A stretch of 64,000 nt of DNA, taken from contig JAEVLN010000009.1 in the NCBI GenBank assembly GCA_018350325.1, positions 1,509,388 through 1,573,387 on the forward strand, written 5' to 3'. Within the stretch, counting starts at the first letter, position 1. Every line of letters starts with the position of its first letter. This DNA is from Globodera rostochiensis. Taxonomy: Eukaryota; Nematoda; Chromadorea; Rhabditida; Heteroderidae. Shown piece after piece: positions 546-39,160 of this stretch. Under the pieces are notes generated by a model. It did not search any database, had not been told where the DNA came from, and saw nothing but the letters and a program-made list of their open reading frames with translations. Both the position numbers and the translations under genes were made by a program.

Positions 546-1616
546 GCAAAAAACAAAGGGACTGTTGTTGTTTGCGGAGGTTTTTAAATATTTTCCTATT
601 TATAGAAGGTAATTTATATCGGGGCACAATGCCTTCTGTGTGTTTATTTCAGGGTTGCCAACAAAATTTGCGAAATAAGGACAGTGAAGGTCAAAAAAAA
701 AGATTTTGCTGGCATTTTGCAGGCAAAAAAAGGGCACTTTACAAAATGTTCAAAAATGCAGTAAATTTTTATTTTTTCCATGAAATGTGAGTTTTTTCCA
801 TATTTCTCGGCACCAACAATTTCTTTCAACATTTGGGTTGGAAATTGCTCGTATGGATTTTCGAAAATTTTGCCGATTTTCGATTTTCAAAATGCAATTT
901 TTTTTTTTGCGAAGGGGGAGGGTCGGCGGTGCCGATAGGCGCCGCCGAGAAAATTTTTTGATTTCGACTCAATTTGTTAAGAAAATTGCTTCAAAAATTA
1001 CGAATATCCTGAAAATCAGTACAATAGAATTTGAAGAAAAATGAGCAAATATTGTTACATTTTGGACATTTAAGCGAAATTCAAAAAAGGATGCGAAAAA
1101 TGCGTGAAAATAACAAATTTGGCCATCTGTCTAAAGATTATTCAAAATTTAAACAAAAATTCTTCAAAAAGCTCCAGAAGCTTTCATTTTTAAATTTGGC
1201 TTCTATGGGTTTATTCGAATTTTTAAGGGTGCATTTTCCGTTCTTTGAGTCAAATAAAAAATTCGAAAAATTTGCATTTTTCGACCAAATGTTTTCATTC
1301 GTATCTGGGATTAAAAATTAGGCAAAACGGAGGCCAGATTCGGATTCTTCGGCCCCAATAACCCCATAAAGGTCTCGTTCCCATCTGAGCGCCAACTTAT
1401 TTTCTTTGGAATTTTCAAAAAACGCATTTTTTTTTTTGCGAATACTTTTGGGAAGACGACGAGGCTGGCGGTACCGATAGGTGCCGCCGGGTTTGACGAT
1501 TTAACCATATTTGGTAAGAAAATTTGGTCCAAAAATTACGAATTTTGCAAAACAAAATGCGTGGGCAGGTTGACGGCGCCGATAGGTGCCAAAGGGAGAC
1601 TTTTTGTAAAATGATT
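546..1616. repeat. Non-coding repeat stretch with GC-palindrome motif
   Basis: No gene is supported here. The stretch is AT-rich and contains three copies of the dispersed GC-rich palindrome family, at about 924-955, 1466-1500 and 1562-1595 (core GGTGCCGATAGGCGCC and variants), each followed by a TTTGTTAAGAAAATT-like tail. It separates exon 5 of PUF-A from the downstream PUF fragment and could be an intron or a later insertion. Confidence 0.5.
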
Positions 1617-3824
1617 TTAAAAATGAGCACACACATTCTCTTGCAGACTGCGCACAATGCGCTCCCGGTCCTCAGGCAGTCCATGCACAATCACATGTTG
1701 AATCACGTAGTTGCCATACGTATGCGTGGCCAAAGTAAGCACATTTTCGTGCAGGTTGCGCACAATGGGCTCCCGGTCTTCGGGCAGTCCATGCTCAAGC
1801 AAATGTTGAATCACGAAGACGCCATACTTATCAGTGACCAAAGAAAGCACATTGCCATGAAGTTGTTCCAGCACGTGACACTTTTGCTTCTCCGTACAGT
1901 GTTCAAGAAGACTTCGAATCACCCAATTACCGTATTCATGGAGGGACAGAAGGAGGACTTGCGCCGATAGCTCATTGATTATCTAATCAAAATTACTTTT
2001 ATTTAATCAGTCTAATAGAGGGGGGAGGGGTCGAAAACAGAAAAGTAAAATCGCATCATTTTTGTAATTCCCAAAGTCAAAAGCAACCGAATCTTAGGCG
2101 CGGAAAACGAATATTCCATCAAAAACGGATTAAAAAGAGCGACAAAGTTTTTTTTTATGCAATATTCGTTTTCAGCACCAAAGAAAATGGGGAGGGGAGG
2201 GGAGGGGAGGGGGGGGGGGGGGGGTCCATTCGTTACACGAATTAAAAGGTAATTAATAAAATTAAATGATTTTGCCTCAATTTGTGACGCTTTGTCCATC
2301 GATTTTAACGCCTTTTCGATCACGTGACAGCCGTTCATGTGCAGGGCCAATGTCAACACGTGGCCACGCAAAGCGTCCATCAGCTGAGCCATCTCTGTCG
2401 GATTGGCACACTCCAACTTTTGCTGGATGAAACTGGCGAAATGATTAATGTAAATTCTAATAAATCAATCAATAGCATTTTTTGTATTAAAATGGTATGA
2501 TTTGATTAAAAAAAAGACTTAAAAGCTGTCTCCAGGTCTAGGTCATTTCCAAAATGAGATCCAGGGGACTCACAAAAGGAAAGTCGCCAAGTGCCCGTGG
2601 AGTTTCGGGATGAATTAATACCACAAAGCGGCATTCATTTTTGCTGCGAACGCCTTGAGAACGAGTTAAAGGCCCTCAAAATGCCAATTTGTGGTAGAAA
2701 TGTGGCAGTGTGCCAAGTTTCATCCCAAAACTCCACGGGCACTTGCCTTTGTCAGACCCGGATCTTGATCCAGAATCCAGGTATTCGGGCCTGGATTTCC
2801 CATTATTTATTGTCGATTCGGCACATCTGGGGTGGTAGTTTAGTGGTGAGTGGTTGTGGTCGAAACTGTTTTGGGTTGGGGTTCGAACCCAGCAATTCTC
2901 ACTTTGAACCGAGCGGGTCCAGCGCAAATTCCATCACGTGCTCGCCCAAATCGGCGAGTTGAAGGTTGGCTGCACGTTTGTTACGGTAATCGTTCAACAG
3001 CTTGGAACGCTGGCTGGGCCGGTCTTAAAAAGCAAAAACTGAAGAAAAAAACTCCAACCGGAAACTCGCAGAAGTAAAATTTGTAATTTATAAATGGATT
3101 AATTTTTTTGTGTTCTTAAAATGTCCAAAATTTACTGGACGAAGCCATGCGAGCGCCCAATGAAAGAACGGCGGCCGGCGGGCACTCGTTTTTAATGCAT
3201 TGATGCAAAAACGTCAGCTGAACAGTTTGAACTTGTCGAACCTAAAAAATATTTTGGGACTACAATATTTGCTTAGGAATGGAGGTTAAGTACTATATAA
3301 TAGTGAGCAAAAATAACGCGCGAAATTTGAATGAACAAAATAAAAAATCAAACGATTTTATTCAATTGTATATTGTTTTTTACGCTTTTTCCCTTTTTTC
3401 GACTTGAAAAAAAACATTTGTTTTGTTGCCTCATAACGCATAAGTACATGGAACCTTTCTGAAAGGTTAGTTAGCTAAAAGCATTATGCTTTTTTCGCAC
3501 AGAAAGGGATTTGATTATAATTCCGGCTTAATCTATTGGCTTTTTAAATCTGAACTCCTCCAACTCTTAGCGCATTTTTGTACGTTTTTCGTAATAACGC
3601 ACAAAATTTAAGCAACAAAAAAAATGCTTTTGCAAGACACGTTATCCCGACAAATTCTCGAGCAAACGGAAAATCAAACGATTTACTCAAAATGTGCATA
3701 AATTGTTTTTACGCTTTTTCATGCCAAAACAAAATTCAACTCAAATAATAAAAAAAAAAGATTTGCAAACCTTGTGAACGATGTGCTGGCCGTTCAGAAA
3801 ATTGCGAATGAATCGGGCGATCAT
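1617..3824 (-). CDS. Pumilio-family (PUF) RNA-binding protein, copy A, N-terminal half
   Basis: Minus-strand exons: 3824-3771 (ATG; MIARFIRNFLNGQHIVHK), 3241-3136 (Ala/Ser-rich linker), 3023-2903 (RPSQRSKLLNDYRNKRAA, start of repeat 1), 2432-2276 (FIQQKLECANPTEMAQLMDA; rest of repeat 1 plus a repeat-3 type), and 1982 to about 1617 (repeat-5 type and two repeat-6 types). Splice phases agree between exons and with copies B and D. The intron after 2276 begins GC (GAG|GCAAAA) and ends TTAG. The last exon runs into a stop (ENVCAHF) after a repeat-6 unit where copy B continues, so the copy is probably truncated, or splices on to the fragment at 95-545. PUF proteins are cytoplasmic mRNA repressors. 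A 6-bp-TSD MITE sits 29 bp upstream of the ATG. The start was chosen because this ATG is conserved in all three copies. Confidence 0.75.
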
Positions 3825-18371: not shown

Positions 18372-21300
18372 ATGATCGCCCGATTCATTCGCAATTTTCT
18401 GAACGGCCAGCACATTATTCACAAGGTTTGCAAATCTTTTTTTATTATTTGAGTTGGATTTTGTTTTGGCATGAAAAAGCGTAAAACAATTTATGCACAT
18501 TTTGAGTAAATCGTTTGATTTTGCTTTTTCGAGAAATTGTCGGGACAAAAGCATTTCTTCTTAATTTTAGCACAATATTAGTAAAAACGCACACGAAAAT
18601 GTTTTTTAAAAAGCGATGGATTATCGTCGAAATTGCAATGATCAAATCCTTCTTCTTCGACCTAATGCTTTTAGGCTTAGGCTTAACCTCTTCATTCGTA
18701 CCCAAATATTTTATTCCCAAAATTTTTTTTAGGTTCGACAAGTTCAAACTGTTCGCCGGACGTTTTTGCATCAATGCATTAAAAATGAGTGCCCGCCGGC
18801 AGCCGCCGTTCTTTCATTGGGCGCTCGCGCGGCGTCCTCGTCGTCGTCGTCCAGTAAATTTTGGACATTTTGAGTCCCCCCCCCCTCTAAAATGGTAAAA
18901 AGACGATTCGTTCCCTTTACCCCGATTTAAAAAAAACTTTGTTATTTCCAAAGTCGATAAAAAAGTCTTTCTAGGCGTTTTTTGAAAATTTTTTGTTTTG
19001 TTTTAAATTGTTAAAAGATACAAAATGGATGTAAGGATGATCGGGAGAGCAAATGAATATGCATTTTGAAGATTTTTGTTACAGAAATTTTGAAAAAAAA
19101 GTTTTTCGAAAAAATTTTCGATTTCGGGGCCGGGGTTCGGAACCCAATCAAAATAGTATCCCTAGGACTCCAAAACACTACTTTTAACGAGTTAAAAAAA
19201 ATTTTGTTTGACAAATTGTTCTCGGGTTAGGGGTTCGACATACGCAAAAAGGGGACCCGGATTTGTTTTCTACGCACGAGTTTTGTACCATTTTTGAGGT
19301 TTTTTGTCATTTTTATTAAGGGGAACGAATCGTCCTCCGTCCCAAAAAAAATCCACAATATTCCTAATTTTTTCTTGTGCAAGTTGAAATTTTTTTTCAA
19401 CAGTTTTTGCAATTTTAGACCGGCCCAGCCAGCGTTCCAAGCTGTTGAACGATTACCTCAATAACCGTGCAGCCAATCTTCAACTCGCCGATTTGGGCAA
19501 TCACGTCCTGGAGTTTGCGCAGGACCCGCTCGGTTCAAGGTGGGAACTGCTGGGTGAACGATTTGAACAGCCCGGGCTGGCGCCATCCATCCCATGGCGT
19601 GTAACTTTCTTTGAAGCAGACAAATTTAATACCATGAAAAGTGTGAAAAGGCCGTTTTTTTTCATTTTTCTTGTTATCGGTGGCTTTAAGAAACTGACCA
19701 GTCGATGTGCCCAGCCATAAAACATTAGTGTTGAGTAGAGTAGGCCGTGGACCGGGATTGAGACAATTAAAAAACCGGGATTTTATAAGGTGTAAATTCA
19801 GTCCCAAGATTGGAGACTTCAGTATCAGTCCCGGTCTCGGCCTACTCTAGTGTTGAGGGCTACAGGTCTTTTCGACACTGAGTTTTAAAAAGTCGACAAA
19901 ATGGTACTTTATAGGGTATCGTGACCGTAGAAACCGAGGCTGAGCTCCATTTGGACCCGATTTAGAACCCAAACCCGAATTTGAACAATTTTTTGAAATT
20001 CAAAAATTTTCAAAAATCAATTTCGCCTCAAAATCTTTAAAAAAGCATGAAATCGATCTCTACTTGCCCTTTTTTGTAATTTTTTGCTTTTTGAAGATTT
20101 TGAGGCGAAATTGATTTTTCAAATTTTTGAATTTTCGAAAAATTGTTCAAATTCGGTTTGGGGTTCTAAAACGGTCGAAATGGAGCTCAGACTCGGATTC
20201 TACGGCCAGGAAACTCTATAAAGTACCATTTTGTCGACTTTTAAAACTATGTCGAAACGTCCAGTGTCGAAACGTCCAGTGTCGAAACGTCCAGTGTCTA
20301 AATGTCCTGCAACGGTGTTGAGTAAGGCTGTCGGTTTCAAACCGAGGCATTTTTTTGGTTTGGTTAAACGAAAAATGTTGGTTCAGTTACCGGTTTTGGT
20401 TTGGTTTGGCTATCGGTTTGGAATTAACCAATGTTTATTTTTTGCCTTGCCGAATATTGGCATTGATTGACACCAAAAAAAGTTGCAGGTTTTGAATCCC
20501 CTCAATTTGCGACTGATGGCTTTCGTTGAAACAAATGCTCACTCCCCAAGAAATCTTTCAATCCAAAACTGTCAATCATTTTTATCAAATTGTACCATTT
20601 TAGTACAAACAAAAAAACAAAGCTATTGATTGATTGATTATATTGTATAATTTGTATTAATCATTTTGTCAGGTTCATCGAGCAAAAGTTGAAGCGTGCC
20701 AATCCGACGGAGACGGCTCAGCTGATGGACGCTTTGCGTGGCCACGTGGTGACATTGGCCCTGCACATGAACGGCTCTCACGTGATCGAAAAGGCGTTGA
20801 AATCAGTGGACAGAGCGTCACAAATTGAGGCAAAATCATTTAATTTTATTATTTTGCTTTAATTCGTGTGATGATTATGTATAAAAAATGTTATTTAGAT
20901 AATCAATGAGATATTGGCGCAAGTGATTCCCCTGTCCCTCCATAAATATGGTACTTGGGTGATCCAAAGTCTGCTCGATCATTGCACGGAGCAGCAAAAG
21001 CGTCCCGTGCTGGAACAACTTCATGGCAATGTGCCCACTTTGGTCACGGATAAGTATGGTAGCCACGTGGTCGAACATTTGATTGAGCATGGACTGCCCG
21101 AAGACCGGGAGCCCATTGTGCGCAGTCTGCAGGGGGGCATTATGAAATATGCACAGGACAAGTTTGGCAGCCTCGTCATAAGGAAGTGTTTGATCTGCGG
21201 GACGGCGGAGCAGAAAAAGGCGCTGTTCGACAACGTCTGTGGGGGGTGAGTTGCTTTTTGCATTAAATGTTTAAGGAATTTTTGTGAAGACGAATGGGGC

Positions 21301-24300
21301 AAATTGTTGGAGGGTTCGCGGTCTTTCAGACTTACAAAATCTTTTGAAATGCTGAATTAAATGACACATTTGGGGCCTAAAGTTTTATTTTTCTCAGAGG
21401 GCCGCAGACGCTTCGAAATGCTCGACAATTGATGGCTGACGAATTTGGCAGTCATGTGATTGAGGTCCTCCAAATATTTATTGTGTTAAATTAATTAGGT
21501 CAGGTTCAAAAGAGGCGAAAAACTATTTTTGTTGTCTCTTCAAATTTGTCAATTCTTTCGAATTTTTAGCCGCACATTCAAAAGGAATTGAAAACATGAT
21601 TTAATTACTAAGTGTGAAGTCCCTATAATAGCCCAAAAAATGGAACGAATAAACGGGATATTATCTAATTATGAAAAAATTCAGAAATTTTTCGAGTACG
21701 GCACGGAGGATCAGAAAGCTCGGCTGGTGGACGCATTGCGTGGCCACGTGGTGACATTGTCCCTGCAAATATACGGCGGTCCTGTGATCCAAACGGCGTT
21801 GAAATCGGTGGACAAAGCGTCTCAGATGAAGGCAAAAAGCATTTATTTTTTTTTGCTTTAATTCGCGTAACGATTAGACTCTCCCTCCCCCCCAAAAAGG
21901 CCATTATTACATTTGAGGATTGATTATTCTAATTAAAAACAAATTAATAAATATGATATTTTTAAAGATAATCGAAGAACTGACGCCGCGTTCGTGTGTG
22001 ATTAAATGCATCAAAGATCATTATGGAAGCCATGTCATTAACAGGGTGAATAACACCAATATATAACAATTATATAAATGTGTTGTTTGAGTCTTAACCG
22101 GGGCTCCCGGGTCTGGGGTTAGCGTCATTAGAAACTGTTAAAGATTATTTGCAGTTATTTGAACTCATCGAACCAGAACGGCTTCAGTTTGTCGTTGATG
22201 CCATACTGTACAGTCCATCGGATTCGGTACATTTTTACCAAAATTAAAATTTTGAGTTTTTTGAACTTTTCTATGTATAATTCATTCTTAATTTTCTCCA
22301 AACACTTAGTCTATGTTTATATACAGATTATATTAAGATAATGGTACTAATATTGCTTTAATTTGACAAGAGCTATAGAACTCCAAACTTTGTAATGGAT
22401 GAGTTGGGTTGCTTGACCCTTTAGAAATTAAATTTGTTTTTTGAAATAAACAAACAAACAAAATCTGATAAAACAACAGGTTGCCTCTTTGTCCCTCCAT
22501 GAGTACGGTAGGCGGGTGATCGAATGTGTGCTTGAACACTGCACGGAACAGCAAAAGCGTCCCGTGTTGGAACAACTTGATGGCAATGTGTCCAAGCTGT
22601 TCAACGATTACAGCAACGCCCGTGCAGACAATCTTCAGCTCACCGATTTGGGCAAACACATCGTGGAGTTTGCGCAGAACCGGCGCTGTTCAATGTAGGA
22701 ATTGCTTGGGGGGGGGGAGGGAGAATTGACAAGTTTCGCGGTGAACGAGTTGAACAGCCCGGTCTGTCTCGAAACTAAGCGATTGAACAAAACATTAAAT
22801 GGCATGGACTCAAAAAGTGAATCTAATTTTTGGACTACTTGTTATTAGAGCCCGGCCGAGATTTTCCGAGAGTCTAGGTCTCGAATCTCGGAAATTTCTC
22901 TAAAACTCCGAGACCTAGACTCTCGGAATTTCGATATTTTTTATTTCAAAAATCTAGGTCTCGGCCCATTCCCAAATCTCGATCTCGCTCTCGGCGATTT
23001 TGACCGAATTCGAGATTTTGGAAAGGATTGTTTTTCGAAGTGAAATACGGAAAAATGTGGTAATATATTTGAATATTTCAACTGTTAGTTATAATGTCAC
23101 GTAGCTCAGTGGTTAAACTGTGATTTTGCCTAAAGCTTGAGTCCTTAAATTTTTTATCCGTTTTTGCATGCCCAGATGGTGGGTGGTGTGATGGTGAGTG
23201 ATGTGGGTTGCTTCTTAACTTAGCTTTTTTCAAATAAACTTGCATTTTCCAAAAGTTACCAAACCAAGAAAACCGGGTAAACCCTACCCAAGTGTTCGGA
23301 CACAACAGTTTGATGAAGACACGTTTTTGAGTGACTCGCAAAAAAGAACAGAGCGCACTGCTGAGTCGGAAGTTGATATGTATTTATCCAGTGCTTTTGA
23401 CAAGGATGCAAAAGCGTATGAATCTATTGGAGAATTTTGGGCAAAAAATGAAAAAATTCTTCAAGTGCTCTCAAAGGTTAGAGCCTGAATTATGTTATTT
23501 TTTAATAAAAAATGATTCAGGTTGCGAAACAAATCTGGCATTGCCTGCTAGTTCGGAAGGGGCAGAGAGAGCGTTCAGGGGGTACGGAGAATTGCGCACT
23601 GGAGAATTGCGCACTGGAGAATTGCGCACCGGCAGTTTTTGGAGAATTGCGCACGGAGGATTGCGCACCGTGGAGAATTGCGCACCAGCAAAAAAAAGAG
23701 GAGAATTGCGCACTAAAAATTGCGCACTAACATGGAGAATTGCGCACCACGGGTCAAATTTTTGAAAAATTTTTTTATACAAAATTGTCTGAAATTATGA
23801 TGTTTGATGCGCCGATAGAACCCCTAAGCTCAGGGTGGCTTAGGCCTAAGCCTAACGAACCCCAAGCCAGTGTGGCTTAGGCCTAAGCCTAACGAATTTC
23901 AACCCAGTATGGTTTAAACCACTTTAAATTCTCTATTTAATTTTCGATTGACGAATTCGTAATCAGCGTATCAAATAACATAATTTTCAGACAATTTTGT
24001 ATGGAAAACATTTTCAAAAATTTTGACCCGCAGTGCGCAATTCTCCATTTTGGTGCGTAATTTTTAGTGCGCAATTCTCCTCTCTTTTTTTTTTGCTGGT
24101 GCGCAATCCTCCGTGCGCAATTCTCCAAAAACTGCCGGTGCGCATTCTTCAGTGCGCAATCTCCTAGCGCCGTCCGCCACCTCCACGCCGGTTGTTGAAC
24201 CCGCTGTTGTTGCGGCAGCTCCAACAGCAGCACTGGCAGCCATGCTGGTCTGCGTCGCCCAATTCCTTCTCTAACTGTCTCACCAGAAAGTTGACTCGCT

Positions 24301-27300
24301 TATGCTGTTTCCCTGCATAAGGCTTCCACTGCTCTTTGTAACCTGCCCGGCCTCTTCCATTCCTGGAAGGATATTCAAAACGCTCGCGTTGCTTCCCGGC
24401 TTGGCCATTTTCTTGCGGATCCACCTGCACAACCGGTGGACAGGCCTCCACCCGCTGGTGGGTCAGTCTCCTTCGGGTTTGGCTCCGGACCTTGAGGTTA
24501 AGCTTCCTCCTCCTCCTCAACTTTGTCTGGCTGCTCCTGATTGGCCGATTTGTCCACATGCAAATTTTCGGTCAGATCGTCCAGAGCATCCGTGAAGGCA
24601 CACAAGGATCGGGTCTGACAGTATGGGCTCGACTTTTGCCCAGAAAGCTTCGATGGACGTGCGTACATCCTCTTCCATTGCATATTGCAGCTGGGCCATC
24701 ATTAATTTCATTTCTTCTTGGGTGCTTTTCTTAGGCTTTTTCGCCGGTTCGCTGGTCGGGGGAGTATTTTTAATATTTTCGGTCTCCATTCGTTTCAAAT
24801 TAGCTGGGAAAGGGGGAAAAAGTTTACAAGTCGGCATTATGCGTAGGCGATTGGGATTGGGCAACTAGAGCGGTGGGGTAGGAAAAAAAACGGGCAAAAA
24901 TTTTTTGATTTTTTTTTGTGATATGTACACTGTTTTGTACAAAGTGTTGGACGGACGAATGCCCTTACTGACGCCGAGCAGCGCCTAACCGCCGCGCTTA
25001 TATTTGGTCAATGTGGGCGGTTCTTACAACGGAACTTCCCTCGAGTTGCGCCTCCCAAATTCGTTCTCCGACCGGTTGTAAAAGGATGCCTGGAGCCCAT
25101 TTGCCATCGGGCTCCCTTATCCATACTGTGTCCCCGGGGTCAAAGTCCTTTCCGTGTCTGTGGGTTTGCCCTATCGGAGAAGTCTGTTCCGTTCCGGTTT
25201 GGGACGTCTGCTGCCCGCGGACTATTGCTGTCATTTTTATTCGGTCCAATGTAGTACGATCTCTCGGCCTAAAAATTTTTTCGCCTGACTTTCCCCTTCC
25301 CCGATTGAGCAGGGGGTCGCCCTATACTCCTGCAGAAGGACGAATTGTGCCATTTTGAGACTCTTTCCCTCCACCGGCAGTTTAACCATCCTTCCTTAAA
25401 GGTTCTGACGAGTCGTTCTGCCTCTCCGTTCGAGGCCGGATGATATGCTGGTGAGGTCAAATGTTTGGTCCCTTCCCCTTGTAAAAACGTCTCCATCTCG
25501 CTGGACATAAATTGTGGTCCATTATCGGTGACAAAAGTCCTCGGAGAACCAAACATTCCAAAAATTTCTCTCAAATGATTAATAATTTCTGTTGAGTGCG
25601 TCGAGTTTGTTTGAAACACCCAAGGATATTTGGAGTGAGCATACCAAAATTAAAAAGTTTGTCCCCCAAATCGGGCCTGCCAAATCCCCGTGTACCCTTT
25701 CGAACGGGAATTTTGCCTCCGGCCATTTGTGGTCTACGTCAACTTTTGGTGGATTTGGGGCGTTTCTTTGCTCTTTCCCTATGGTATGGTTTTAAACTTT
25801 CTTCGATGGGTTCTTCCCACCCCTCCTTAATTTTTGCTTTTACTTGGGAAAGTATTGGGTCCATCGCTGTTTCCTTGGCTACCTGTTCCCGGTCCCACGC
25901 CATTTCGCTTAAGCTGTTCTCGTCCGCAAGGAGCAAAAAGGGAATTTCTTCCCTGAACTTAGCTTCGACCTGTTCCCATTTAATTAGAACTCGGGACAGG
26001 GCATCGGCTACTTTATTGGCTTTACCCTCCAAATAAATTACACAGGGTTCGAATTCCTGAATGGACATTAACCATCTGTTAAGTTTCTGGGCGCGTTTCG
26101 CAACCCAAAAGATAGCTTAAGCATTTGTTAAAGGCCCCAAGGCGTCACTATTCCGCACTTGTATGAGCTTTCGTTATCCAGCGGAATTTGCCAAAACCCT
26201 GAGGCCAAATCTAGGGTTGAGTACCACTTTTTCCCTGCCACCCTCAGAATTGTTTTATCCATTCTCGGTATTGGGTACGGGTCGGGTATGGTTATTTTGT
26301 TTAACGGTCTGAAGTCTACGCAGGGGCGCAGTTTGCCGTTTGACTTTTCAATGTTATGGGCCCAGGGGGTGTAACTTTTTTTGATAACTCCCGCCTCTAA
26401 CATTTTCTCGATTTGCATCTGCATTTCTTTCTCGTATTTTTCCGGCACTGGATATGGCCTTACTCTTTCTGGAATTTCGGATGTCGTTAATATGGGTGGT
26501 GACTTTAAATTGCATTCTCCGAAATCGTACTCATCTTTTGAAAAAACATCACAGTGTTTCTCCAGAATTTCATTCAATTTTTGGGTGATATTGCATTTTG
26601 AATCCGCCTCAGGCTTTTCACAAACAAAAATTTTTCCGTCACTTTTTCTCAAGAATGAACCGGTTTGCAAATCCAATAAAAACGGCAGATGCTTGAAAGT
26701 ACTTCTTCCCACAATTATATCGTACGAGCCCGATCCTCCGATCTTCGCTTTCACCACACAAATTAGTGTCGATACTTTACATTCGGCTATAGTTATTTTG
26801 ATGTTACTCTGACTCAAAATTGGTATTGTTTTCCCACTAACGCCGACCACTCCTAAAAGCTCTGCTGGGTCCATTTTCTCGATGCCCAACCTTTTAGCAG
26901 TTGAGTAACTGCATAGTGAGACGTGCGCTCCCGAGTCTAATAAGGCAATAATTTTACACCCATTTGCCTCTCCCCCAGTCTAAAGTGTTCGTCGCACTGG
27001 TCAACCGATGGAACGACTACTAACACCTCATTGATTTTCTTTTCCACTTCGTCGTTTCCTACACTTAGTTGAACTCGTCGAGAGGTTGACGGAATTTGCT
27101 GTGGTGATGGCCATCTTGCGGACAGCGGGATAGGGTTTTCGACTCTTTTTAGTATAGATGTTTTCGGAACGGCAATCATTTGTTCATTTTTCGTCCTTTT
27201 TCTTCCAGATTTTTCTTCCCGTTTTGGGGTTTCCTCCGTACGGTCACTCTCCCTTTGGGTGGGGTGACGGTCGTTGGGTCGGAATGCCCGCCAGCCATTT

Positions 27301-30300
27301 ATTAAAGTGGTAATAATTCCGACGTACTGAATGGCTTGGGCAATCGGCTGAGGCAGTAAAACTTAGGAACCGTAAAGGTTACGTAACAACAGCACAAAAA
27401 GGCCCATAATTGATTAAATGTAATAATTATTCCCCTCAGAAATAAAAAAAGTCCCTTTGAAACTATGCTTGCAGCAATCTGATCAGTTTGTTCGGATGTT
27501 TCCGCCCAATTATTCGGTTTTGACATTCGGGCAATTTCCTGGACTACTTTCGCAACTTCCATTGTTTCCTCAAAATGCTCTGGAGAATACAGTTCTTTAA
27601 GGGTTGCAATAATTCTATTTTTGAAGAATTGCGCATGCACTTCGGGTAGGTCAACATGAAGATTAAATGAAATAGGGAGCATTTCAAAACATTGGCCGGA
27701 CTGCCAATGGTAGTGCATTTCTCCCTCATTTATGAGAAAACATGGCTTTACTTCCAATATATTTTTGGTAACCAGTCTCGCTGACAAAATTTGATTATCC
27801 AAATAGAATCGTGCCAAAAGAGTGGGATTTGCCTCTGCTAACGTGAGCGTCTGATCAGCCAAAAATTGAAAACTTGTGCAAATTTTCCGTACCGTTTCCG
27901 TAAATAGTTGCTGAGTGTTTTCTGTAACTTTTGCACTGAGAGCTGTCAATTGTGCCGACAGCTGAGATGTGTATACCAATCCTACTTGGCCCGGCAGGAT
28001 GATTGGTGTTTGTTCCTGCGGTTCCCGCCGCATTTGTCCGCTCTCCTCACTGTAGTCAAAATTTCTTTTCATTCTATTCTTTTTGTTGGTTTTTCCACTT
28101 TGTTTTACCATTTCCTGAAATTGTGCTTCCGGAATGGCGAAAGCCTGATCTGACACGATAAATTTAGTCCCCTCACAATCCCTCATTTCGGTTAAATTCG
28201 CAAACGTTAGTGCAAAATCCCCTTCGTCCGCAGTCCAAATACTGGTTGAATATTTTCCTGGCCATTATGCTACCTTCACATATGCACATAATTGTGTGCG
28301 ATCCGATCTCCAAATTAAGCTAACCTTTGGGCATTTGCAAGTTCGTGTCTGGTATGGAAAGGCGGAGCACTCGTTAACCGGTGTATTCACTTCGGATATG
28401 CCATGCCGGGTAAAAAGTACAGTATTATATACATAGCAATTAGCCACCTCCACCGTACTCCAAAATAATCCCCTTGGCCACCATTTCCATCCTACTTCCA
28501 GTGAGTTGCGTGTTGCACGAAATGTCCCATTAACCTGTACTAATTCCCCTTCGGCTGATTCTTCCCTCATTTTCCGGCAAACGGTGATAGGGACCTCAAT
28601 TGGATTGGCTATTACTTCCTCGTACCGGGCTCCGAATAACCCTTTCCTTCTGGAAATTTTTGTTTTATACATTTGCAAGCAGTGGCCTCAGTTTTGTACT
28701 GTAAAGTATTCAGCCTAAATACCGACAATTCCATTGGAATTGGTATTCCCTTTGGCGTCCAAGAAGGACAGAAAGGATCAGCTGGAATTGACCACAAGCT
28801 CTTAGGGGCGTCCGGTAAGCAAATCATTGGACTAGCCGCCGTGTTCGTAGCCAGACCAGGCGTGAAAAGCGCTAGCATCGCAATTAGGGCCAAAAATAGG
28901 TGGCTAGCAATCCGTGCTTAGCCATTCTACCCCCTCCAAATCGCACTCTTCTTTGTGGTGATTGGGATCTGTCGTATTGATCGTTTCCTTCCCCGAAAGG
29001 AGTCGGTGATCGGCGACTATTTCGTTCATTTCGATATCCACTAGCCCTTTTTCCAAATCGCGTCCTTCCCTCTGTTATTTTCCCACCTTCGGGGTCCATT
29101 CTCTCCATATCTTCCTTCGTCTCTTTGTTCCCATCGGCGTCCATTTTGCCCCTCCCTTCTCATTTTTGTTCGGCAATCTAACAATATGCCCAGGGCGCCG
29201 ACAATAATAATAGATTCTTCTTTCCGCTCCTCTGTTAATGGTACCCCCTCGCTGTTGTTGGCCAAGTGCCAAAGCCACCTTTTGGTTGAAAGCTCAGCAA
29301 CAGAATCGACCACCGAAATTTGGTTCGACCTCCTCGCTGCAAGAAGCAATTCAAAATGTTGCGCTAGTTTATACGCGTTTGAATAATTTGCAGGCCTCCT
29401 CGCTTTGACCTCAAATTGGAGCTCAGGAGTCAGTCTCTCCAGAAACTCCTCCAACAGCCGCCTCCTTATCGATGATTCAGTGTCTCCGGCAAGCGCAGTT
29501 TGTATGGCCTCGTTTAGGCGGTTTGCGAATTCGTATACCCTTTCCGGGGGGCCTGTTTACAAATCGATAGGGCTTGTCGCGCAATTGATCGCGTATTCTC
29601 GTTTTCAAATTTTGCTTTAGATGATCCAAAGCAATCGTTAAGTCAGCGGGTTGGGGATCGATAGCTCCAATTCGGTTCGAGCCTGACCCTTTAAAAGAAT
29701 TCGCAATCGACTCAGTTTCTGGGGCTCCGTTAGTTGGGGATATAAAGAAAACATATCCTCCAACTTAGAAACCCAACGCGAGAAAGAAATGCTGGGATTG
29801 CCTATCGTAACTTTCCATCGGAGTTATTCCCCCTAGAAAAGGATCCGTGACCATTATTTCGCACTCCAACTGCTTTTGATGCATTGCGCCTTCGGGTGTT
29901 TCACTCTCAGATTGCGACTTTTGTTCTCCTTCCCCTCGGGGCCCTTCCTCCCCTCCGGGTAATTGTTCATGCTCGAAAGCATGCCCATTCTCCATCCACT
30001 CATTCCCAATAGATTCATTCTCCCATTCCAGGAGTTCCACTCGCCCCCTCAGTACTTCGATCTGTCGCTGTACTTTATCCGCTTCGCCTTTCACTTTTTC
30101 AATCATCTTGGAAAATTTGACTTTTGTTAGCTTTTCGAAGCTCTCATGGCGAGTTTGCATTTGATCGACTTTTTCTTCGACCCTGATCAACTGCTCTTCG
30201 ACTTGGAAATGGTCCGTTTCCTCCGTGTTTTCCAATTCGATCACGGATGTCTCCAGCCCATTTATTCTTCCAATCACTTCGGTATTGGGGGGCCGATTTG

Positions 30301-33300
30301 CCATTTCATTAATCTCCTTCTCCATTTTACGAAACTGCCGACAAACGGCTGATTCAAATACTCGCATTTGGGTCAGCACGTTTCTCCAATTTTGATTTTC
30401 TTCTGATTTGAAGAACATTGGGTCAAAATCCGAACCCGTTGCTGGGGGAATGGCAGCGTTTTCCTCCGCTCCGCTCATTTTTACCAATAATCACACAATT
30501 CCAATCAGCAAGCAACGAAAAGGGTTTTTATGCAAATTGAAAAAAATAGCACCCAGCTCAACTGGAAAAACACAATTTTACCAGCCAGAAATTTGGAGAT
30601 GATAGCACAACTGCCCGGCTGGAAGTACACAACTTTGACCAGCTCAAATTCTTTCACTGCTTCGTTGGGCACTGAGCCTCAACCACCGATCGAACCACCA
30701 GAAATTCGGGTCCCGGGTCGTGGCACCAAAAAGTGTTATGTCCGAACACTTGGGTAGGGTTTACCCGGTTTTCTTGGTTTGGTAACTTTTGGAAAATGCA
30801 AGTTTATTTGAAAAAAGCTAAGTTAAGAATTAAGGGTTGGATCGCTTCAGACAGGGAACCTGAGATTAAGAATGCAAAGTAAAAACCTGATTTTGGGGGG
30901 TTAGAACAGAGCTTATATAGTGGGCCAAGTTTGGGTGGGAGGGACGAGCAGAAGGAACATTACAATGGACTGTTATTGGGATGGGCATAACTTTTGGTCC
31001 GGAAGAGATGGGGAAGAGATTTGATTGATAGGTGGGGTCTGTTGTGGATTTGGTTTGGGGCAATGTGAAAAACAATTTTAAGAAAAATAGGAAAAGGGGA
31101 AATGAAGGGAAGACAATTTTTAGAACGGACAGACTCAACACAAACTCCATATTTATTCCACCAATTGCCAATTCATCCGTTGTTACCGACATTTTGCGTT
31201 TTATTTTTCTTATTTTAGACCTCACACACTCATGGATCTTAAGCAAAGTTAACGATTTGTTTTGCTAAATTAATGTCAACCGAAATTTTGTCAAATTCGG
31301 ATACGCTTATGTTAAGCTAGTCTTTCTTACTTAATCGAGCCACCCAGTGAGCGCAAAACTTTGTTGCAATTGAAAAACTTGCAAACAACAAAATGTTTGA
31401 TCTGGCCATTTGAAAATGCCTTTTCTTTTTCGCCATCCTTGTCATAATATGGGATGCAGATTTTTGGCATTGCTTCACTCTTAGGCTTGTAGAAAATGAC
31501 TCCATTTTTAATATTTTTTCAATTTCATCCTTAGACAGTTGTTCAGAAGGTTTATCAGGAAATTGATTCATCGTGAAACCAAAAGATTTTTTAATTAAAT
31601 TCATAAAAAAATGTGACAAACAAACGAGCCACTCTGAACTTAAGTTCCTACCCTACTAAAAATCATGAACTTTGGTAATATAAACTGAACGATGAAAGAA
31701 AAAAGCAAAAAAACTATTCAAAGCGGGTAGAAACTTAAAAGATGCAAAAATATAAATTATATTTGAAAATCTATTTTTTGTTTATATTTAATCAAATTTT
31801 GCAGTCCAAAAAATTTAAAAAAGTGGATGGGACTTAGTCGGCTTTTTTGTACTGAGACGTAACTGGCCAGACGCAAACGGCCAGACGCAAACGGCCAGAC
31901 GCAACTGGCCAGACGCAAACGGCCCGCTTCGAACAAACGAGGAAAAGAAAAAAACATTTTTGCTATTTGAATAAATGCTTTCGTTTCAATAAATGCTTTC
32001 GTTTCAAAAAATGATTACAAAAACATTGGTACTCAAATGTACGGATATGCGCGGATATCCGCGGATTTGACTTTCATATCCGTATCCATCCCTGTCCGTC
32101 CCCTTTTTTGAAATTCCGTATCCATCCATATCCGGATATATCCGCGGATATCCGGACATCCATGTCCATGCCCGCGGGAAAGTACCTTTTTTTCACCATC
32201 CCTTATTAAGAATTTTCATTTTTTTCTCTCGGCGACGCCTATTGGCATCGCCGATCACCTACAAAAAAAAAACCCCTAATAAAAATGGCTAATCAATTAT
32301 TTTTCACAATATTATTTAAAATATGCGTAACGGTTTTAAGGAAATTTCAAAAAATCTCGGTCGAGATCTCGGTCTAAAAAATGGTCCGAGACCTAAACTC
32401 TCGAAATTTTGAGATTTTTGATCTCGAAAATCTAGGTCTCGGCCCATCCCCAAATCTCGATCTCGGATTTTTCAAAATTCCGGGCTCTACTTGTTATAAC
32501 TTTATGAACTATGCCCAATCGCTTGGCTTTTGCTCTGTAATGATTCATTCCACTTTTCCCCAAATAGAATTGTTAAGAAAATGTCAAAAACGTATCGCGG
32601 AAGGGTGGTAACAAAAATAATAAGTCTTGCGACAGCATTTTGGGAATGCCCCCCCCCCCTCCATTTGCGAGCGATGGATTTCTTCGAAGTAGTTTTTTAG
32701 AACTCGCATTAACATTTCGCCAGGTTCATCGAGCAAAAGTTGGAGCATGCCAGTCCGACGGAGACGGCTCAGCTAATGGACTCATTGCGCGGCCACGTGG
32801 TGACATTGGCCTTGCACAAGTCCGGCACTCACGTGATCCGAACGGCGTTGGAATCGGTGGACAAAGCATCACAAATTGAGGCAAAACATTTAATTTAATT
32901 ATTTTTCTTTTTTTGTGTAATGATTGGGTCTTCCCCCCCCCCTCCATTTCTCATAATATTGGATCAAAAAAAGATTACTGGAACAGAATGAAAAAAAGGT
33001 GCTGAAAAAGAATATTCTATATAAAACAACTTTAGCCCTTATGCTTGACTATTTATATAAAAAAAATGTTATTTAGTAGAGACCGACCTGGACCTTGGTA
33101 CAGGCCTGGATTTTTCCTGTACCTGGACTTTTCCTGGACTTTGGTCCAAGAAATCAGGTCCAGGCACCTTCCTAAAATCCAGGTCCGGTCCGGGTCCAGG
33201 CATAAAAAACCTGGATTTCCTGGATTAAAAATACACCTCTAAAGAAGGTGTTTCTAAGCAACAGACAACAGAAATTTTGGTTGATTTTACCCGCAAATTT

Positions 33301-36300
33301 TAAATTTTAGTAACAGATCGCCTAATTTCGAAATATTTTAAAGTTTATTTTGGATTTTGATAGCAAATCTCAACAAAAAACGACAATTAGTAAAAAACAT
33401 TTAAGTCGAGGGGGACCATGGCTCCCCGAAGTTTTTTGAGAAAAAAATCATATGGTGAACCTTTTGTTTTACAAAATTAATAATTTTTAACCAATTTTCG
33501 TAACAAACCATCAAAAATTCGAAAATTTTTTCGGCGGCGCCTTCAGCACCGCCGACCCCCTCCCCCCAAAAATAAAGCAAAACTCTCAAAAAAAAACCTA
33601 GCATTTTGAAAATCGCAAATTTTCGCATTTTTGTGCAATTTTTTTAACAATGTAAAAAATTTACCAAAAATCGAAAAATTGCTTCTTGGACTCCCAGAAC
33701 TTTATTTTTGCCTTAATGTTTGGTTAAAAGTTGAATAAAGATTGGATTGCCCCATTAACGAGTTGTTTAGCATTAAAACAAGTGAATTTTTTGCTAATAT
33801 TAAAAAATAAGTATTTTTGAAAAAAGTCCAGGGCCCTGGGTACAGGCATCCGTACCCTGGATTTTTCCTGGACTTTGGTCCAGAAAATCAGGTTCAGGCA
33901 CCTTCTCCAAGTCCAGGTCCAGGAATTTTCAAATGTCGGTCTCTATTATTTAGATAATCAATGAGATATCGGCGCAAGTCCTTCTTCTGTCCCTCCATAA
34001 ATACGGCTGTTGGGTGATCGAATGTCTGCTTGAACACTGTACGGAGCAACAAAAGCGTCACGTGCTGGCACAACTTCATGGCAATGTGCTCAATTTGGTC
34101 ACGGATAAGTATGGTAGCCACGTGATCGAACATGTGCTTGAGCATGGACTGCCCGAAGACCGGGAGCCAATTGTGCGCTGTCTGCAAGAGAATGTGCTTT
34201 CCTTGGTCACGGATAAGTATGGTAGCCACGTGATCGAACATGTGCTTGAGCATGGACTGCCCGAAGACCGGGAGCCAATTGTGCGCTGTCTGCAAGAGAA
34301 TGTGCTTTCCTTGGTCACGGATAAGTATGGCGTCTTCGTGATTCAACATTTGCTTGAGCATGGACTGCCCGAAGACCGGGAGCCAATTGTGCGCTGTCTG
34401 CAAGAGAATATGCCCACTTTGGTCGCGGATAAGTATGGCGTCTTCGTGATTCAACATTTGCTTGAGCATGGACTGCCCGAAGACCGGGAGCCAATTGTGC
34501 GCTGTCTGCAAGAGAATGTGCTTTCCTTGGTCACGGATAAGTATGGTAGCCACGTGATCGAACATGTGCTTGAGCATGGACTGCCCGAAGACCGGGAGCC
34601 AATTGTGCGCTGTCTGCAAGAGAATGTGCTTTCCTTGGTCGCGGATAAGTATGGCAGCTTCGTGATCGAACATCTGATTGAGCATGGACTGCCCGAAGAC
34701 CGGGAGCGCATTGTGCGCAGTCTGCAAGACGACATTATGAAATATGCACAGGACAAGTTTGGCAGCCTCGTCATAAGGAAGTGTTTGATCTGCGGGACGG
34801 CGGAGCAGAAAAAGGCGCTGTTCGACAACATCTGTGGGGGGTGAGTTGCTTTTTGCATTAAATGTTTAAGGAATTTTTGTGAAGACGAATGGGGCAAATT
34901 GTTGGAGGGTTCGCGGTCTTTCAGACTTACAAAATCTTTTGAAATGCTGAATTAAATGACACATTTGGGGCCTAAAGTTTTATTTTTCTCAGAGGGCCGC
35001 AGACGCTTCAAAATGCTCGACAATTGATGGCTGACGAATTTGGCAGTCATGTGATTGAGGTCCTCCAAATATTCATTAGGGTTTCGTATAGACTCAATAA
35101 ATCGCGTTTATTTACGTACTGCATCTCGTTACCGAATAGAAAATTCCATTTGCCATATTTATTGTCAATTAAAAACGAGAGCATTAGGATTGCACAGTAC
35201 CGGTTAAAAACCGATTTTCGTTTAACCGGGTTTTTAGAGACTCGGTTTTCGTAACCGATTTAGAACTATGACCGGTTAACCGACCGGTTTTTTTCGGTTT
35301 ATGACCAGTGTTTTTCTTTTTTGGATTTGTTCAGTTCTCAAAAACGTTTGAAAATATTTTTCATTAAAAATAATAAAGATATTTTAATTTTCATTAATTT
35401 GCTAAGTAATTTTCTAAATTTTCAATAAGTAACTATTTTGAGCAGTGGAATCGAGACTTAATTTTGAGTGAGAGTCACGTTTAAGGATTTGGAACCGAGT
35501 CCATGACTGAGAACTTTTTAAAAACCCGTATTTTTTAAGTTTTTTTCAATGCACTGAAACTCGAGAAACAAAACCGATAAATGACCTTGAGAGTCGAGAT
35601 CTGACCCAAAAACAGAGACTCGAGGCCGAGACTTTTTCAAGGATTTTAATTTTAGGTTCAAAAATCGGGAAATTAAAAAAAATTCAAAATTTCTTGATCA
35701 AAATGATTCAGAAATTTTTCGAATACGGCACGGAAAATCAGAAAGCTCGGCTGGCGGACGCATTGCGTGGCCACGTGGTGACATTGGCTTTGCACAAGTA
35801 CGGCGGCCCCGTGATCCAAGCGGCGTTGAAATCAGTGGACAAAGCGTCACAAATTGAGGCAAAACATTTAATTTTATTATTTTTCTTTAATTTGTTTAAT
35901 GATTGGACCCCCCCCCCCCCTTCTTTGGTGCTGAAACAAATATTCCAACAAACAACTTTGGCGTTTGCTTTTAATCCGGTTTTTAGACTTTTTTGATAAA
36001 AATAATTTAATTTAGGTAATCAATGAGCTATCGGCGCTAGTCCTTCTTCTGTCCCTCCATAAATACGGCTGTTGGGTGATTCAATGTCTTCTTGAACACT
36101 GCACGGAGCAGCAAAAGCGTCACGTGCTGGAACAACTGCATGGCAATGTGCTCTCTTTGGCCACGGATAAGTATGGTAGCCACGTGATCGAACATGTGCT
36201 TGAGCATGGACTGCCCGAAGACCGGGAGCCAATTGTGCGCTGTCTGCAAGAGAATGTGCTTTCCTTGGTCACGGATAAGTATGGTAGCCACGTGATCGAA

Positions 36301-36797
36301 CATGTGCTTGAGCATGGACTGCCCGAAGACCGGGAGCCAATTGTGCGCTGTCTGCAAGAGAATGTGCTTTCCTTGGTCGCGGATAAGTATGGCAGCTTCG
36401 TGATCGAACATTTGCTTGAGCATGGACTGCCCGAAGACCGGGAGCGCATTGTGCGCAGTCTGCAGGACGACATTATGAATAACGCACATCACCTAAACAT
36501 CTCCTTCATAATCGATAAGTGTGTGGTTTTTGGGACGCCGGAGCAAAAAAATGCGCTGATCGACCAAGTCTGCGCGGAGTGAGTTTTGACCGAGAATCCC
36601 GGAAACTAACTGTTTTTGTTCATTTGTTCAGCAACGGCTCCGGCAGCCCGCCTTTGTTGGAAATGATGAAGTATCCAATGGGCAACAAAGTTGTGCAGAA
36701 AATGCTGAACGTTGCGGACTCTGCGCGTCGTCAGAAAATGATGTCGGCTATCAAAACTGCTCAGATTAAAAACACGGCAAAAAGGCCATCAAAGTGA
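18372..36797 (+). CDS. Giant PUF RNA-binding protein, copy B (about 27 PUF repeats)
   Basis: Sixteen exons read in phase from ATG to TGA: 18372-18425, 18733-18853, 19419-19539, 20673-20829, 20899-21245, 21398-21464, 21685-21831, 21968-22045, 22155-22226, 22480-22694, 32724-32880, 33954-34840, 34993-35059, 35712-35858, 36016-36578, 36632-36797. They total 3,366 nt, about 1,121 residues. Repeat types in order, named after human PUM repeats: 1,3,5,6,7,2,3,4,5,1,3,5,6x6,7,2,3,5,6x3,7,8. Canonical PUFs have eight and bind 3'UTR elements to repress mRNAs. Introns after 20829, 21831, 32880 and 35858 start with GC. The intron 22695-32723 holds a 9.6-kb transposon; whether it is spliced out is inference. 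If it is not, two shorter proteins would result. The ATG is conserved in copies A and D. Confidence 0.8.
18426..18732. other. Intron 1 of PUF copy B
   Basis: Bounded by AAG|GTTTGC and TTTTTTAG|GTTCG. AT-rich. An internal ATG-led ORF at 18613 is not conserved in copies A and D and is left out. Confidence 0.6.
19736..19849. mobile_element. 114-bp hAT-type MITE in PUF-B intron
   Basis: Ends TAGAGTAGGCCG and its inverted partner CGGCCTACTCTA. Perfect 8-bp duplication GTGTTGAG (19728-19735, 19850-19857). A closely related element sits in the same intron of copy D (60919-61032), with the flank matching on one side, so the insertion predates the B/D duplication. Confidence 0.88.
19858..20672. repeat. 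Fold-back repeat and AT-rich rest of PUF-B intron 3
   Basis: About 19865-20290 is an inverted repeat (AGTCGACAAAATGGTACTTT with its partner AAAGTACCATTTTGTCGACT). Related sequence is at 48745-49080. A GAAACGTCCAGTGTC unit is repeated three times near 20250-20300, and a palindromic TAAGGCTGTCGGTTTCAAAC element starts near 20329. No gene. Confidence 0.5.
23212..23308 (+). repeat. Inverted LTR-end fragment
   Basis: About 97 bp (TTCTTAACTTAGC through CCCAAGTGTTCGGACACAAC) equal the reverse complement of 30734-30830, the end of the LTR next to the primer-binding site. It lies in opposite orientation to the LTR element downstream and joins directly to hAT transposase sequence. Confidence 0.75.
23309..23590 (+). 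pseudogene. hAT transposase C-terminal fragment
   Basis: Reads SEVDMYLSSAFDKDAK, IGEFWAKNEKILQVLSKV, then after a small gap or intron ALPASSEGAERAFR, which matches the hAT dimerisation block (W-x-P-L-LA ... ASSxxxERxFS). It is truncated on the left by LTR sequence and on the right by the GGAGAATTGCGCAC palindrome. Its place inside the TAGAGCCCGG-ended element suggests it is what remains of that element's own transposase. Confidence 0.7.
23583..24172. repeat. 590-bp palindromic element with GGAGAATTGCGCAC repeats
   Basis: Arms of about 190 bp pair inverted, each with five to six copies of GGAGAATTGCGCAC or its complement. The AT-rich centre holds TTAGGCCTAAGCC palindromes (23840-23900). A target duplication was not recognised. 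Confidence 0.7.
24170..24864 (-). pseudogene. Unrecognised ORF downstream of pol in the LTR element
   Basis: The minus strand starts MPNPNRLRIMPTCKLFPPF. A charged region (TQEEMKLMMAQLQYAMEEDV, VEPILSDPI) is followed, in another frame, by CAFTDALDDLTENLHVDKSA and an acidic run, then by an Arg/Lys-rich C-terminus (RTRGRAGYKEQW-like) reaching the palindrome at 24172. At least two frame changes are needed. It lies where a third ORF or 3' untranslated region of an LTR element would be. The family was not recognised. Confidence 0.4.
24998..27179 (-). pseudogene. pol remnant: protease, truncated reverse transcriptase, integrase
   Basis: The retropepsin motif is ALLDSGAHVSLCS (about 26950-26910). 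The reverse transcriptase start is recognisable (SNGKLRPCVDFRPLNKI, WYSTLDLASGFWQI) and ends right after FGLRNAP near 26110; the sequence then jumps to an RNase H end (EFEPCVIYLEGKANKVADAL), so the YxDD active site is deleted. Integrase shows FVTDNGPQF and YHPASNGEAERLVRTFK (second Asp and Glu), followed by a C-terminal DPGDTVWIREPDGKWAPG domain ending at 24998. Frame changes occur around 25620-25740 and elsewhere. The intact protein would copy and insert the element. This one cannot. Confidence 0.82.
27302..28924 (-). pseudogene. Envelope-like glycoprotein region (broken)
   Basis: On the minus strand a short hydrophobic leader (about 28890-28850, signal-peptide-like) precedes a Cys-containing ectodomain, a basic cleavage-like site near 28070, a long helical region, and a C-terminal hydrophobic segment of about 20 residues near 27380-27440 that would span a membrane. 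At least two frame breaks occur, about 28185-28265 and 28610-28680. The architecture is that of envelope-like proteins of LTR retroelements; the exact family was not established. Its place between gag and pol is unusual. Not functional as read. Confidence 0.55.
29045..30487 (-). pseudogene. gag remnant
   Basis: The N-terminal ORF (30487-29765) begins MVKMSGAEENAAIPP and is largely coiled-coil (heptad-rich, about residues 40-140). A shift near 29800 leads into a capsid-like region recognisable in another frame (RVYEFANRLNEAI-like, then EEFLERLTPELQFEVKARRP at about 29450). A Gly/Arg/His zinc-knuckle-like segment (YYYCRRPGHIVRLPNK, first Cys lost) is at about 29190. Gag forms the particle. Frame breaks make it a pseudogene. 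Confidence 0.65.
30711..30728 (-). promoter_or_regulatory. Primer-binding site of the LTR element
   Basis: The minus strand reads TGGTGCCACGACCCGGGA, five bases after the LTR end (...AACA). It starts with TGG, complementary to a tRNA 3' CCA, as in LTR elements primed by a tRNA 3' end. Which tRNA was not determined. Confidence 0.75.
30734..31260 (-). repeat. 5' LTR of the Gypsy-type element
   Basis: In plus coordinates it starts TGTTATGTCCGAACAC at 30734, the complement of an LTR ending in CA. The minus strand has a TATA box (CTATATAAG at about 30912-30920). The far end is not fixed because no matching second LTR exists. Confidence 0.65.
31261..31849. other. AT-rich stretch between LTR and satellite
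   Basis: No recognisable gene. A minus-strand ORF at 31317-31619 shows no known motif and is not called. Confidence 0.4.
31856..31925. repeat. 14-bp tandem repeat GGCCAGACGCAAAC
   Basis: About five units of GGCCAGACGCAAAC/T. The unit has the same length and core (AGACGC-A-GGC) as the large satellite at 63541-64000. Confidence 0.85.
31926..32229. repeat. Palindromic GGATATCCGCGGATATCC-type repeat
   Basis: About 32040-32175 consists of GGATATCC/CCGCGGAT words in palindromic order, like the MITEs with word-repeat interiors. The rest is AT-rich. Confidence 0.5.
33077..33945. mobile_element. 869-bp hAT-type element at the 3' splice site of a PUF-B intron
   Basis: Ends TAGAGACCGAC and GTCGGTCTCTA. 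Perfect 8-bp duplication TTATTTAG (33069-33076, 33946-33953). The duplicated word is the 3' end of the intron, and the right copy serves as acceptor for the exon at 33954. Interior: CCAGGTCCAGG words near both ends and a GC-palindrome motif at about 33530-33560. Confidence 0.9.
35060..35711. repeat. Intron between PUF exons with palindromic repeats
   Basis: Contains AACCGGTTAACCGACCGG-type palindromic sequence at about 35195-35300 and GAGACTCGAG-type words at about 35450-35640. Ends at ATTCAG|AAATTT. Confidence 0.5.
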
Positions 36798-38529: not shown

Positions 38530-39160
38530 GGTGAGAGAGAACGCTAAACGAGAGAAAGTTAGAGAAAGAAAGGAAATTTGTTTAATTCTCTCGCACTCTC
38601 TATTTATTGGTACACATCTCGCTTTTTGAGCCGCTATGTGTAGCTTTTCTTGCGCTTTTTGCATTTATTCGAATGTTTTTTGAGTTTCAGATCGTTTACC
38701 CACACCGTTCAAGTACAGCAAAGGGGCGGTGCCGAATAACGGATAATATGGCACTTTTGATGATTGAATAATTTTTTTCTCGCTCGTCGGACAATTTTGT
38801 TTTGGGAAGTCATATTCGAATAATGTCAGAATTTTGAAATCAATTTAAATAGTGATTGTATTTTATTTACAGTTTTTATGGACATTAAAGTACATTTATC
38901 CCTAACAAAAAACATGTTTGACAAAAGTTTTTTTTGTTCTGAAATCATTTCATCGCAACTAACAAACAAATTTATAAAAATTAAAGAAACTAAAACACTT
39001 CAAATTAATCAAATAACAATTGAAATTTCTAAAACCAAAGTAAAATGATTGTTTACATTAACAATTTATTTTGAATTGAATTTTTGTTGTTTTTAAACCG
39101 GTTCAAAAACCGTTTTAAATTGTCAATTTTGATTTCTATCAACTAATTCTAATTTTGAAA
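38530..39160. repeat. Dispersed repeats
   Basis: About 38530-38645 repeats the GAGAGAGAACGC...TTGAGCCGCT block of 6000-6112. About 38680-38760 repeats the GTTTCAGATCG / CCGTTCAAG element. The rest is AT-rich. Confidence 0.5.

Follow-up and report, generated by a model that had tools for sequence, protein, structure and literature searches.

The gene at positions 18372-36797 of the window, the 64,000-nucleotide stretch of Globodera rostochiensis DNA analysed here (C80:1509388-1573387 in a 92.6-Mb assembly), encodes 27 PUF repeats and is one member of a clustered poly-PUF family of Globodera. The overlong PUF gene described in the initial annotation is real, and the finding is larger than first reported: the family, the presequence-like N-terminus, the diverse base-reading residues, the transposon in one intron and the public gene model that stops there had gone unseen. 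The gene anatomy and the family are as good as certain. As an explanation of the whole we favour, with some reserve, a Globodera poly-PUF family with a mitochondrial RNA role, in which the proteins would bind RNA, be imported and act on mitochondrial targets.

The coding sequence is spread over 16 exons whose phases agree throughout, giving a protein of 1,121 aa that ends at a TGA at 36797. All the exons that the initial annotation had put together in phase, from ATG to TGA over 18 kb, were confirmed, and both junctions singled out there, 22694/32724 and 34840/34993, are present in the sequence. The acceptors are AG in 15 of 15 cases; the donors are GT in 11 and GC in four, the latter behind R3 exons. 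The features of the gene and its surroundings are as follows.

107..3824, minus strand: 5' part of paralog g1508 (13 repeats in all), which runs beyond the window
18372..18425, plus strand: exon 1, conserved ATG, MIARFIRNFLNGQHIIHK, start of the presequence-like N-terminus; at least 40 genomic copies
18733..18853, plus strand: exon 2, a Ser run plus what remains of the presequence-like stretch; frame open in all 14 copies
19419..19539, plus strand: exon 3, first half of repeat 1
20673..20829, plus strand: exon 4, second half of repeat 1 fused to repeat 3; GC donor
20899..21245, plus strand: exon 5, repeats 5, 6 and 7
21398..21464, plus strand: exon 6, first half of repeat 2
21685..21831, plus strand: exon 7, second half of repeat 2 and repeat 3; GC donor
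21968..22045, plus strand: exon 8, first half of repeat 4
22155..22226, plus strand: exon 9, second half of repeat 4; conserved in three genes, with the same junctions in A0A914I0Q5
22480..22694, plus strand: exon 10, repeat 5 and the first half of a new repeat 1 in one exon (predicted hinge); seven full-length genomic copies, 100% identical in g1467
22846..32489: transposon of 9.64 kb within the intron, with 10-bp inverted ends TAGAGCCCGG/CCGGGCTCTA and an 8-bp duplication CTTGTTAT at 22838-22845 and 32490-32497
32724..32880, plus strand: exon 11, second half of repeat 1 fused to repeat 3; GC donor
33954..34840, plus strand: exon 12, repeats 5, 6x6 and 7 in a single open exon
34993..35059, plus strand: exon 13, first half of repeat 2
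35712..35858, plus strand: exon 14, second half of repeat 2 and repeat 3; GC donor
36016..36578, plus strand: exon 15, repeats 5, 6x3 and 7'
36632..36797, plus strand: exon 16, repeat 8 up to the TGA; alternative end at 36793, ahead of a GTGAGT donor
38691..38739, plus strand: candidate exon 17, SFTHTVQVQQRGGAE and a stop; homologous to the last exon of model A0A914I383
55554..61984, minus strand: paralog g1564 (12 repeats), repeat-1 exon frameshifted

The coding frame of exon 2 is VRQVQTVRRTFLHQC, with all 14 copies equal in length modulo 3; the FDKFK frame was rejected because it contains a stop in 7 of 14 copies, versus none in the VRQVQTVRRTFLHQC frame. Among the 24 R3 exons of the 12 C80 genes examined, 23 are followed by a conserved GC donor (AG/GCAAAA), which makes this donor a trait of the family. 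Some public models take an upstream GT instead, as A0A914I1H7 does at its first R3. At the 3' end, the TGA at 36797 overlaps a GTGAGT that is retained in 11 of 12 genes, and the public models of two paralogs, A0A914I0Q5 and A0A914I383, splice at this GTGAGT into one further short exon. The TGA may be intronic, and the gene could end either at 36797 or via exon 38691-38739. An array of a 38-bp AT-rich unit lies between exon 16 and candidate exon 17 (37711-37995). Directly 5' of the ATG (18351-18371), conservation with the paralogs reaches a TTTAG and then drops, as at a trans-splice acceptor.

Repeats were counted with a PUF profile at a lax threshold. It gave 27 in this protein, two of them below 5 bits, 27 in g1467, 20 in A0A914I0Q5 and 8-17 in 31 other Globodera family proteins; as a control, 8 were counted in 15 of 15 canonical nematode PUFs. 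The Pfam PUF model (PF00806; tandem repeats of about 36 aa) matched the 27-repeat protein with 688 bits, and 19 stretches passed individually. The count of about 27 given earlier is borne out by these searches. With type-specific profiles the order of the repeats was 1,3,5,6,7,2,3,4,5 followed by 1,3,5,6x6,7,2,3,5,6x3,7',8, which reproduces the order in the initial annotation, where the penultimate repeat was written as 7. The claim that PUF domains are fused head to tail, with repeat 1 placed straight onto repeat 3, is supported, and the paralogs back the join. By eye, canonical exons R1b and R2b make up a hybrid at the R1-R3 join, as R4a and R5 do at R3-R5, so that the repeats remain near full length. 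Repeat 6 was amplified as 108-bp units, three of which are identical over 108 bp. With 27 reshuffled repeats the protein has neither the eight repeats in the order 1-8 of classical Pumilio/FBF proteins nor the about 11 of the Puf-A/Nop9 type.

The family first exon occurs in at least 40 copies (40 of 50 candidates scored) on C18, C23, C28 and C80, a number of copies and not necessarily of intact genes. A second 27-repeat gene, g1467, is found at a distance of about 50 kb and has 19 exons in phase. The neighbour g1441, with 20 repeats, is represented in UniProt by A0A914I0Q5 (stretches of 97-100% identity) and shares the fused R5-R1 exon. The 12 C80 genes examined have 7 to 27 repeats, the 7-repeat g1382 being without one exon, and their splice sites and phases are conserved. 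The frameshift in the repeat-1 exon of g1564 (61210-61378, minus strand) is either a real mutation or an assembly error. At 16867-16918 on the minus strand we observed an orphan copy of the family last exon, perhaps the remnant of a lost gene. A locus on C8 (L032, C8:889001-894000) was considered as the canonical PUF gene and rejected, the canonical gene being on C23; the C8 locus is another family member, with a 405-codon open frame at 1985-3196 and eleven PUF profile hits.

G. pallida also has the family, with at least five of its proteins among the matches listed. One G. pallida protein (P0009, 1471 aa, named ILWEQ) consists of an ILWEQ gene joined to a 14-repeat family member and is probably an annotation run-on, since the family start MINRFIRNFLNG sits in the middle of the protein. 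Hits from non-Globodera nematodes had 8 repeats in 14 of 14 proteins counted. Heterodera was not named among the matches listed. A literature search within a limited library found no account of a PUF or pumilio expansion in cyst nematodes, and the one paper it gave on Globodera and pumilio was a microRNA review. The poly-PUF family is known so far only from Globodera.

The family probably arose from an ordinary 8-repeat PUF gene. In protein-to-DNA matches the introns of the canonical PUF gene (C23:3972383-3975698) fall at the same five places as those of the family, which would allow blocks of exons to be copied and linked without loss of phase. Such duplication across phase-matched introns would probably have been accompanied by recombination inside exons and by unequal exchange of the 108-bp repeat 6.

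The intron 22694/32724 is 10 kb long and contains the transposon at 22846-32489, which we take to be hAT-like. Its interior holds, on the minus strand, pieces of a retroelement pol (protease-RT at 26128-26976, integrase at 25269-25646), and the open reading frames at 27302-28264 and 29765-30487 gave no Pfam match. The fused R5-R1 exon upstream of this intron occurs in full length in seven places on C80, C18 and C28, the present locus included, with 79-100% identity, and is identical between this locus and g1467. In g1441 the empty site is kept, with an intron of about 360 bp after the fused exon; in g1467 the next exon follows about 918 bp on, without the large insert. The R5-R1 join is a family feature because the fused exon is found in seven places and the next exon is close by in g1441 and g1467. 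Over 192 bp the 5' flank of the intron matches that of g1467, which lacks the insert, at 98% identity, and the insertion may be recent; open downstream exons would then not prove that the whole protein is still made. A public model, A0A914I1H7 (536 aa), corresponds to the first half of the locus (98% identity over the query); it carries in addition a tail identical to window 23520-23762 and stops within the intron insert. When the second half was used as query, none of the matches listed exceeded 63% identity (E up to 1e-100, lengths 0.55-1.75 of the query, 8000 candidates scored).

These observations bear on two other readings of the locus. Wrong joining or multiplication of distinct genes or repeat units in the assembly would be conceivable for sequence of the kind that misassembles, such as the three identical repeat-6 units and the fused exon shared unchanged with g1467. 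That reading is very improbable, in view of the seven full-length fused exons, which are 79-100% identical and occupy four contig regions on C80, C18 and C28, and of the separately deposited A0A914I0Q5, which has the same architecture with 20 repeats. A more serious contender, to which we assign a little below an even chance, is that the insertion split the gene: exons 1-10 would be expressed and end in the transposon, exons 11-16 would be silent or decaying, and a 27-repeat product would come only from g1467. The initial annotation had named an early-ending transcript as evidence against its gene, and A0A914I1H7, a prediction and not a transcript, does count against a full-length product of this copy. 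The split is also consistent with the flank identity to g1467, which makes intact downstream exons weak proof. The second half was also searched for a start of its own, but no family first exon lies between the halves; this too is in keeping with a split. On the other side, every downstream exon and splice site is open, long introns can be spliced, and the tail of A0A914I1H7 sits in simple inverted repeats. From the sequence, the chance that this very copy gives a full-length product is about even.

A model of the 20-repeat paralog gives an impression of the fold. In the AlphaFold prediction for A0A914I0Q5 (mean pLDDT 72, pTM 0.43), PUF-like helices in PUF spacing form two confident blocks, at about 66-422 and 440-855 and mostly with pLDDT 80-95, separated by a low-confidence segment (423-439) at the R5-R1 fusion. 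The earlier idea of one unusually long solenoid is unsupported as stated, the paralog being modelled as two blocks with a hinge. By analogy, the 27-repeat protein would comprise nine repeats, a hinge and eighteen repeats.

The residues that contact RNA bases in PUF repeats (positions 12, 13 and 16) were compared between the family and canonical proteins. Complete base-reading triplets were of 120 kinds among 456 in the family (115 kinds among 402 without the two models built here) versus 5 kinds among 119 in canonical nematode PUFs. As a positive control, the canonical triplets were fixed in all 15 nematode proteins, and the simple code reads them as UGUAUAUA; the 27-repeat protein is without the conserved triplets reading UGUANAUA that mark classical PUFs. 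The variation has limits, position 12 being S, C, N or T in 401 of 456 family triplets and position 16 being Q, E, R, N, K or D in 428 of 456. In a DNA-level ranking of positions by amino-acid change, 12, 13 and 16 came 1, 3 and 6 of 36 in R6, 2, 3 and 1 in R7, 6, 3 and 7 in R5, and 1, 11 and 3 of 29 in R3, and only 0.01-0.85% of all three-position sets did as well. By these comparisons, diversification of the base-reading residues is clear.

Selection was estimated on units from the window and selected loci, with units containing indels and the overlapping loci L005 and L007 excluded. Over all pairs the pairwise omega was 1.62 at base-reading codons versus 0.41 elsewhere; with pS up to 0.3 the former rose to 2.26 (bootstrap 2.02-2.52), but we quote the value from all pairs because the low-pS filter inflates omega. 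For codon ML, rows were excluded if they duplicated another or lacked more than 8 codons, and a few canonical-gene repeats in L001 were included. The resulting omega at base-reading versus other codons was 1.18 versus 0.48 in R6, 2.72 versus 0.38 in R5, 1.35 versus 1.02 in R3 and 2.03 versus 0.46 in R7; for R6, R5 and R3, IQ-TREE warned that parameters outnumbered sites. The base-reading value was significantly above 1 only in R5 (2dlnL 5.97), and R6, R3 and R7 did not differ from 1. Positive selection at the base-reading residues is likely, though not proven.

The N-terminus suggests where the proteins may act. Among the first 45 residues of the gene and of 31 database members there are 3-7 Lys/Arg and 0-3 acidic ones, and the helical moments range from 0.46 to 0.68. 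This moment lies above 95% of shuffles in 26 of 32 sequences, but not in the 18372-36797 gene (p 0.11) or A0A914I0Q5 (p 0.33). A crude presequence rule, which uses composition only and was fixed after the members' N-terminal composition had been seen, was passed by 26 of 31 database members (5 failed) versus 0 of 83 other PUFs. The three canonical PUFs compared are without such a start. The family N-termini resemble mitochondrial presequences. Globodera mtDNA is multipartite and that of other plant-nematode genera monopartite (PMC10973440); the mitochondrial link that we infer is a correlation. A mitochondrial contig, sought in the assembly with COX1, was not found. The RNA read predicted for the 27-repeat protein is G-rich, a poor match to AT-rich mtDNA.

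According to the explanation that we prefer, each protein has a presequence-like N-terminus and 8 to 27 repeats, and the longest would form a pair of solenoids that meet at the R5-R1 fusion. Residues 12, 13 and 16, which are strongly diversified, should let each repeat recognise roughly one RNA base. Most likely the proteins would be imported into mitochondria, where they would bind particular transcripts of the fragmented Globodera mitochondrial genome, stabilise them or process them, in a manner like that of plant-organelle PPR proteins. The parts of this proposal differ in strength. Sequence-specific RNA binding, predicted from the residues, is highly probable; import into mitochondria is reasonably probable; mitochondrial transcripts as the targets are possible but somewhat doubtful. 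The boldest form, a PUF-derived animal counterpart of the plant PPR system in which dozens of imported proteins with 8-27 repeats, fast-changing codes and natural cytosine-reading repeats would each be dedicated to transcripts of the broken-up mtDNA, is tentative. If the proteins are mitochondrial, a testable link would connect the growth of a custom set of RNA binders with the fragmentation of a mitochondrial genome in an animal.

The same data could be read in two other ways. The family might work outside mitochondria, in the cytosol or nucleus, with codes that chase changing nuclear, transposon or virus RNAs in an arms-race-like manner and with a charged N-terminus used otherwise. Diverse, fast-changing base-reading residues in large clusters and the G-rich predicted reads would suit such a role, and known PUFs are mostly nuclear or cytosolic according to a survey (PMC7325665). 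We nevertheless consider it rather unlikely, because the presequence-like N-terminus is conserved in the family and absent from the canonical PUFs compared. Improbable, and clearly more so, is a neutral expansion, in which unequal exchange multiplied copies whose base-reading residues drift, RNA binding being no longer needed, and many of which decay. Omega at base-reading codons is not above 1 in three of the four repeat types, and decay can be seen in the lost exon of g1382 and the frameshift of g1564; yet the other codons of R5, R6 and R7 have an omega of 0.38-0.48, residues 12 and 16 remain base-contacting kinds, and splice sites and phases are retained across the C80 genes examined.

The preferred reading, a family of PUF-derived proteins with a mitochondrial RNA role, can be set against known systems. 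The family shares with classical PUF/Pumilio proteins (PUM1, PUM2, FBF and G. rostochiensis A0A914GZB4) the repeat sequences, fragments of the repeat order, the three-residue base-reading motif and the intron places, and the classical structures 5kl1 and 1ib2 are among the PDB relatives of the 20-repeat paralog. Classical PUFs differ in having 8 repeats, fixed triplets reading UGUAUAUA and, in the three compared, no presequence-like start. Puf-A (PUM3), Nop9 and Arabidopsis Pum23 likewise have PUF repeats beyond eight, but far fewer, and the closest sequence relatives of the family are the classical PUFs; in the PDB search with the 20-repeat paralog, PUM3 structures scored E ~5e-13 versus 9.5e-79 for Pumilio. 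A 2024 review (PMC11514114) cites PUF proteins with 8 to 11 repeats, with 11 in Puf-A (PUM3) and Nop9 and 10 in Arabidopsis Pum23, in agreement with the earlier statement that usual PUFs have 8 and Puf-A/Nop9 proteins about 11. In the survey PMC7325665, many animals, nematodes included, had only two or three PUF-superfamily proteins.

The PPR proteins of plant organelles, restorer-like clusters included, are organelle-targeted solenoids of variable length that form large families and in which one repeat reads one base. If the mitochondrial reading is right they would offer a comparison of how such proteins work, although the repeat is unrelated to PUF; no PPR motif was among the Pfam hits of the 27-repeat protein.

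A family in which the first exon occurs at least 40 times, repeats number up to 27 and triplets are of 120 kinds is a natural library for the PUF code, and the library includes Arg-16 codes of the kind brought in by design for cytosine. A 2021 paper (PMC8384837) gives SYR and similar Arg-16 codes as cytosine codes in engineered PUF domains and states that a cytosine-specific triplet had not yet been found in nature. The Arg-16 codes of the family resemble these, but they are natural and their base specificity is predicted. Triplets ending in Arg make up 87 of the 456 and are spread over 32 of 34 proteins, with SYR occurring five times.
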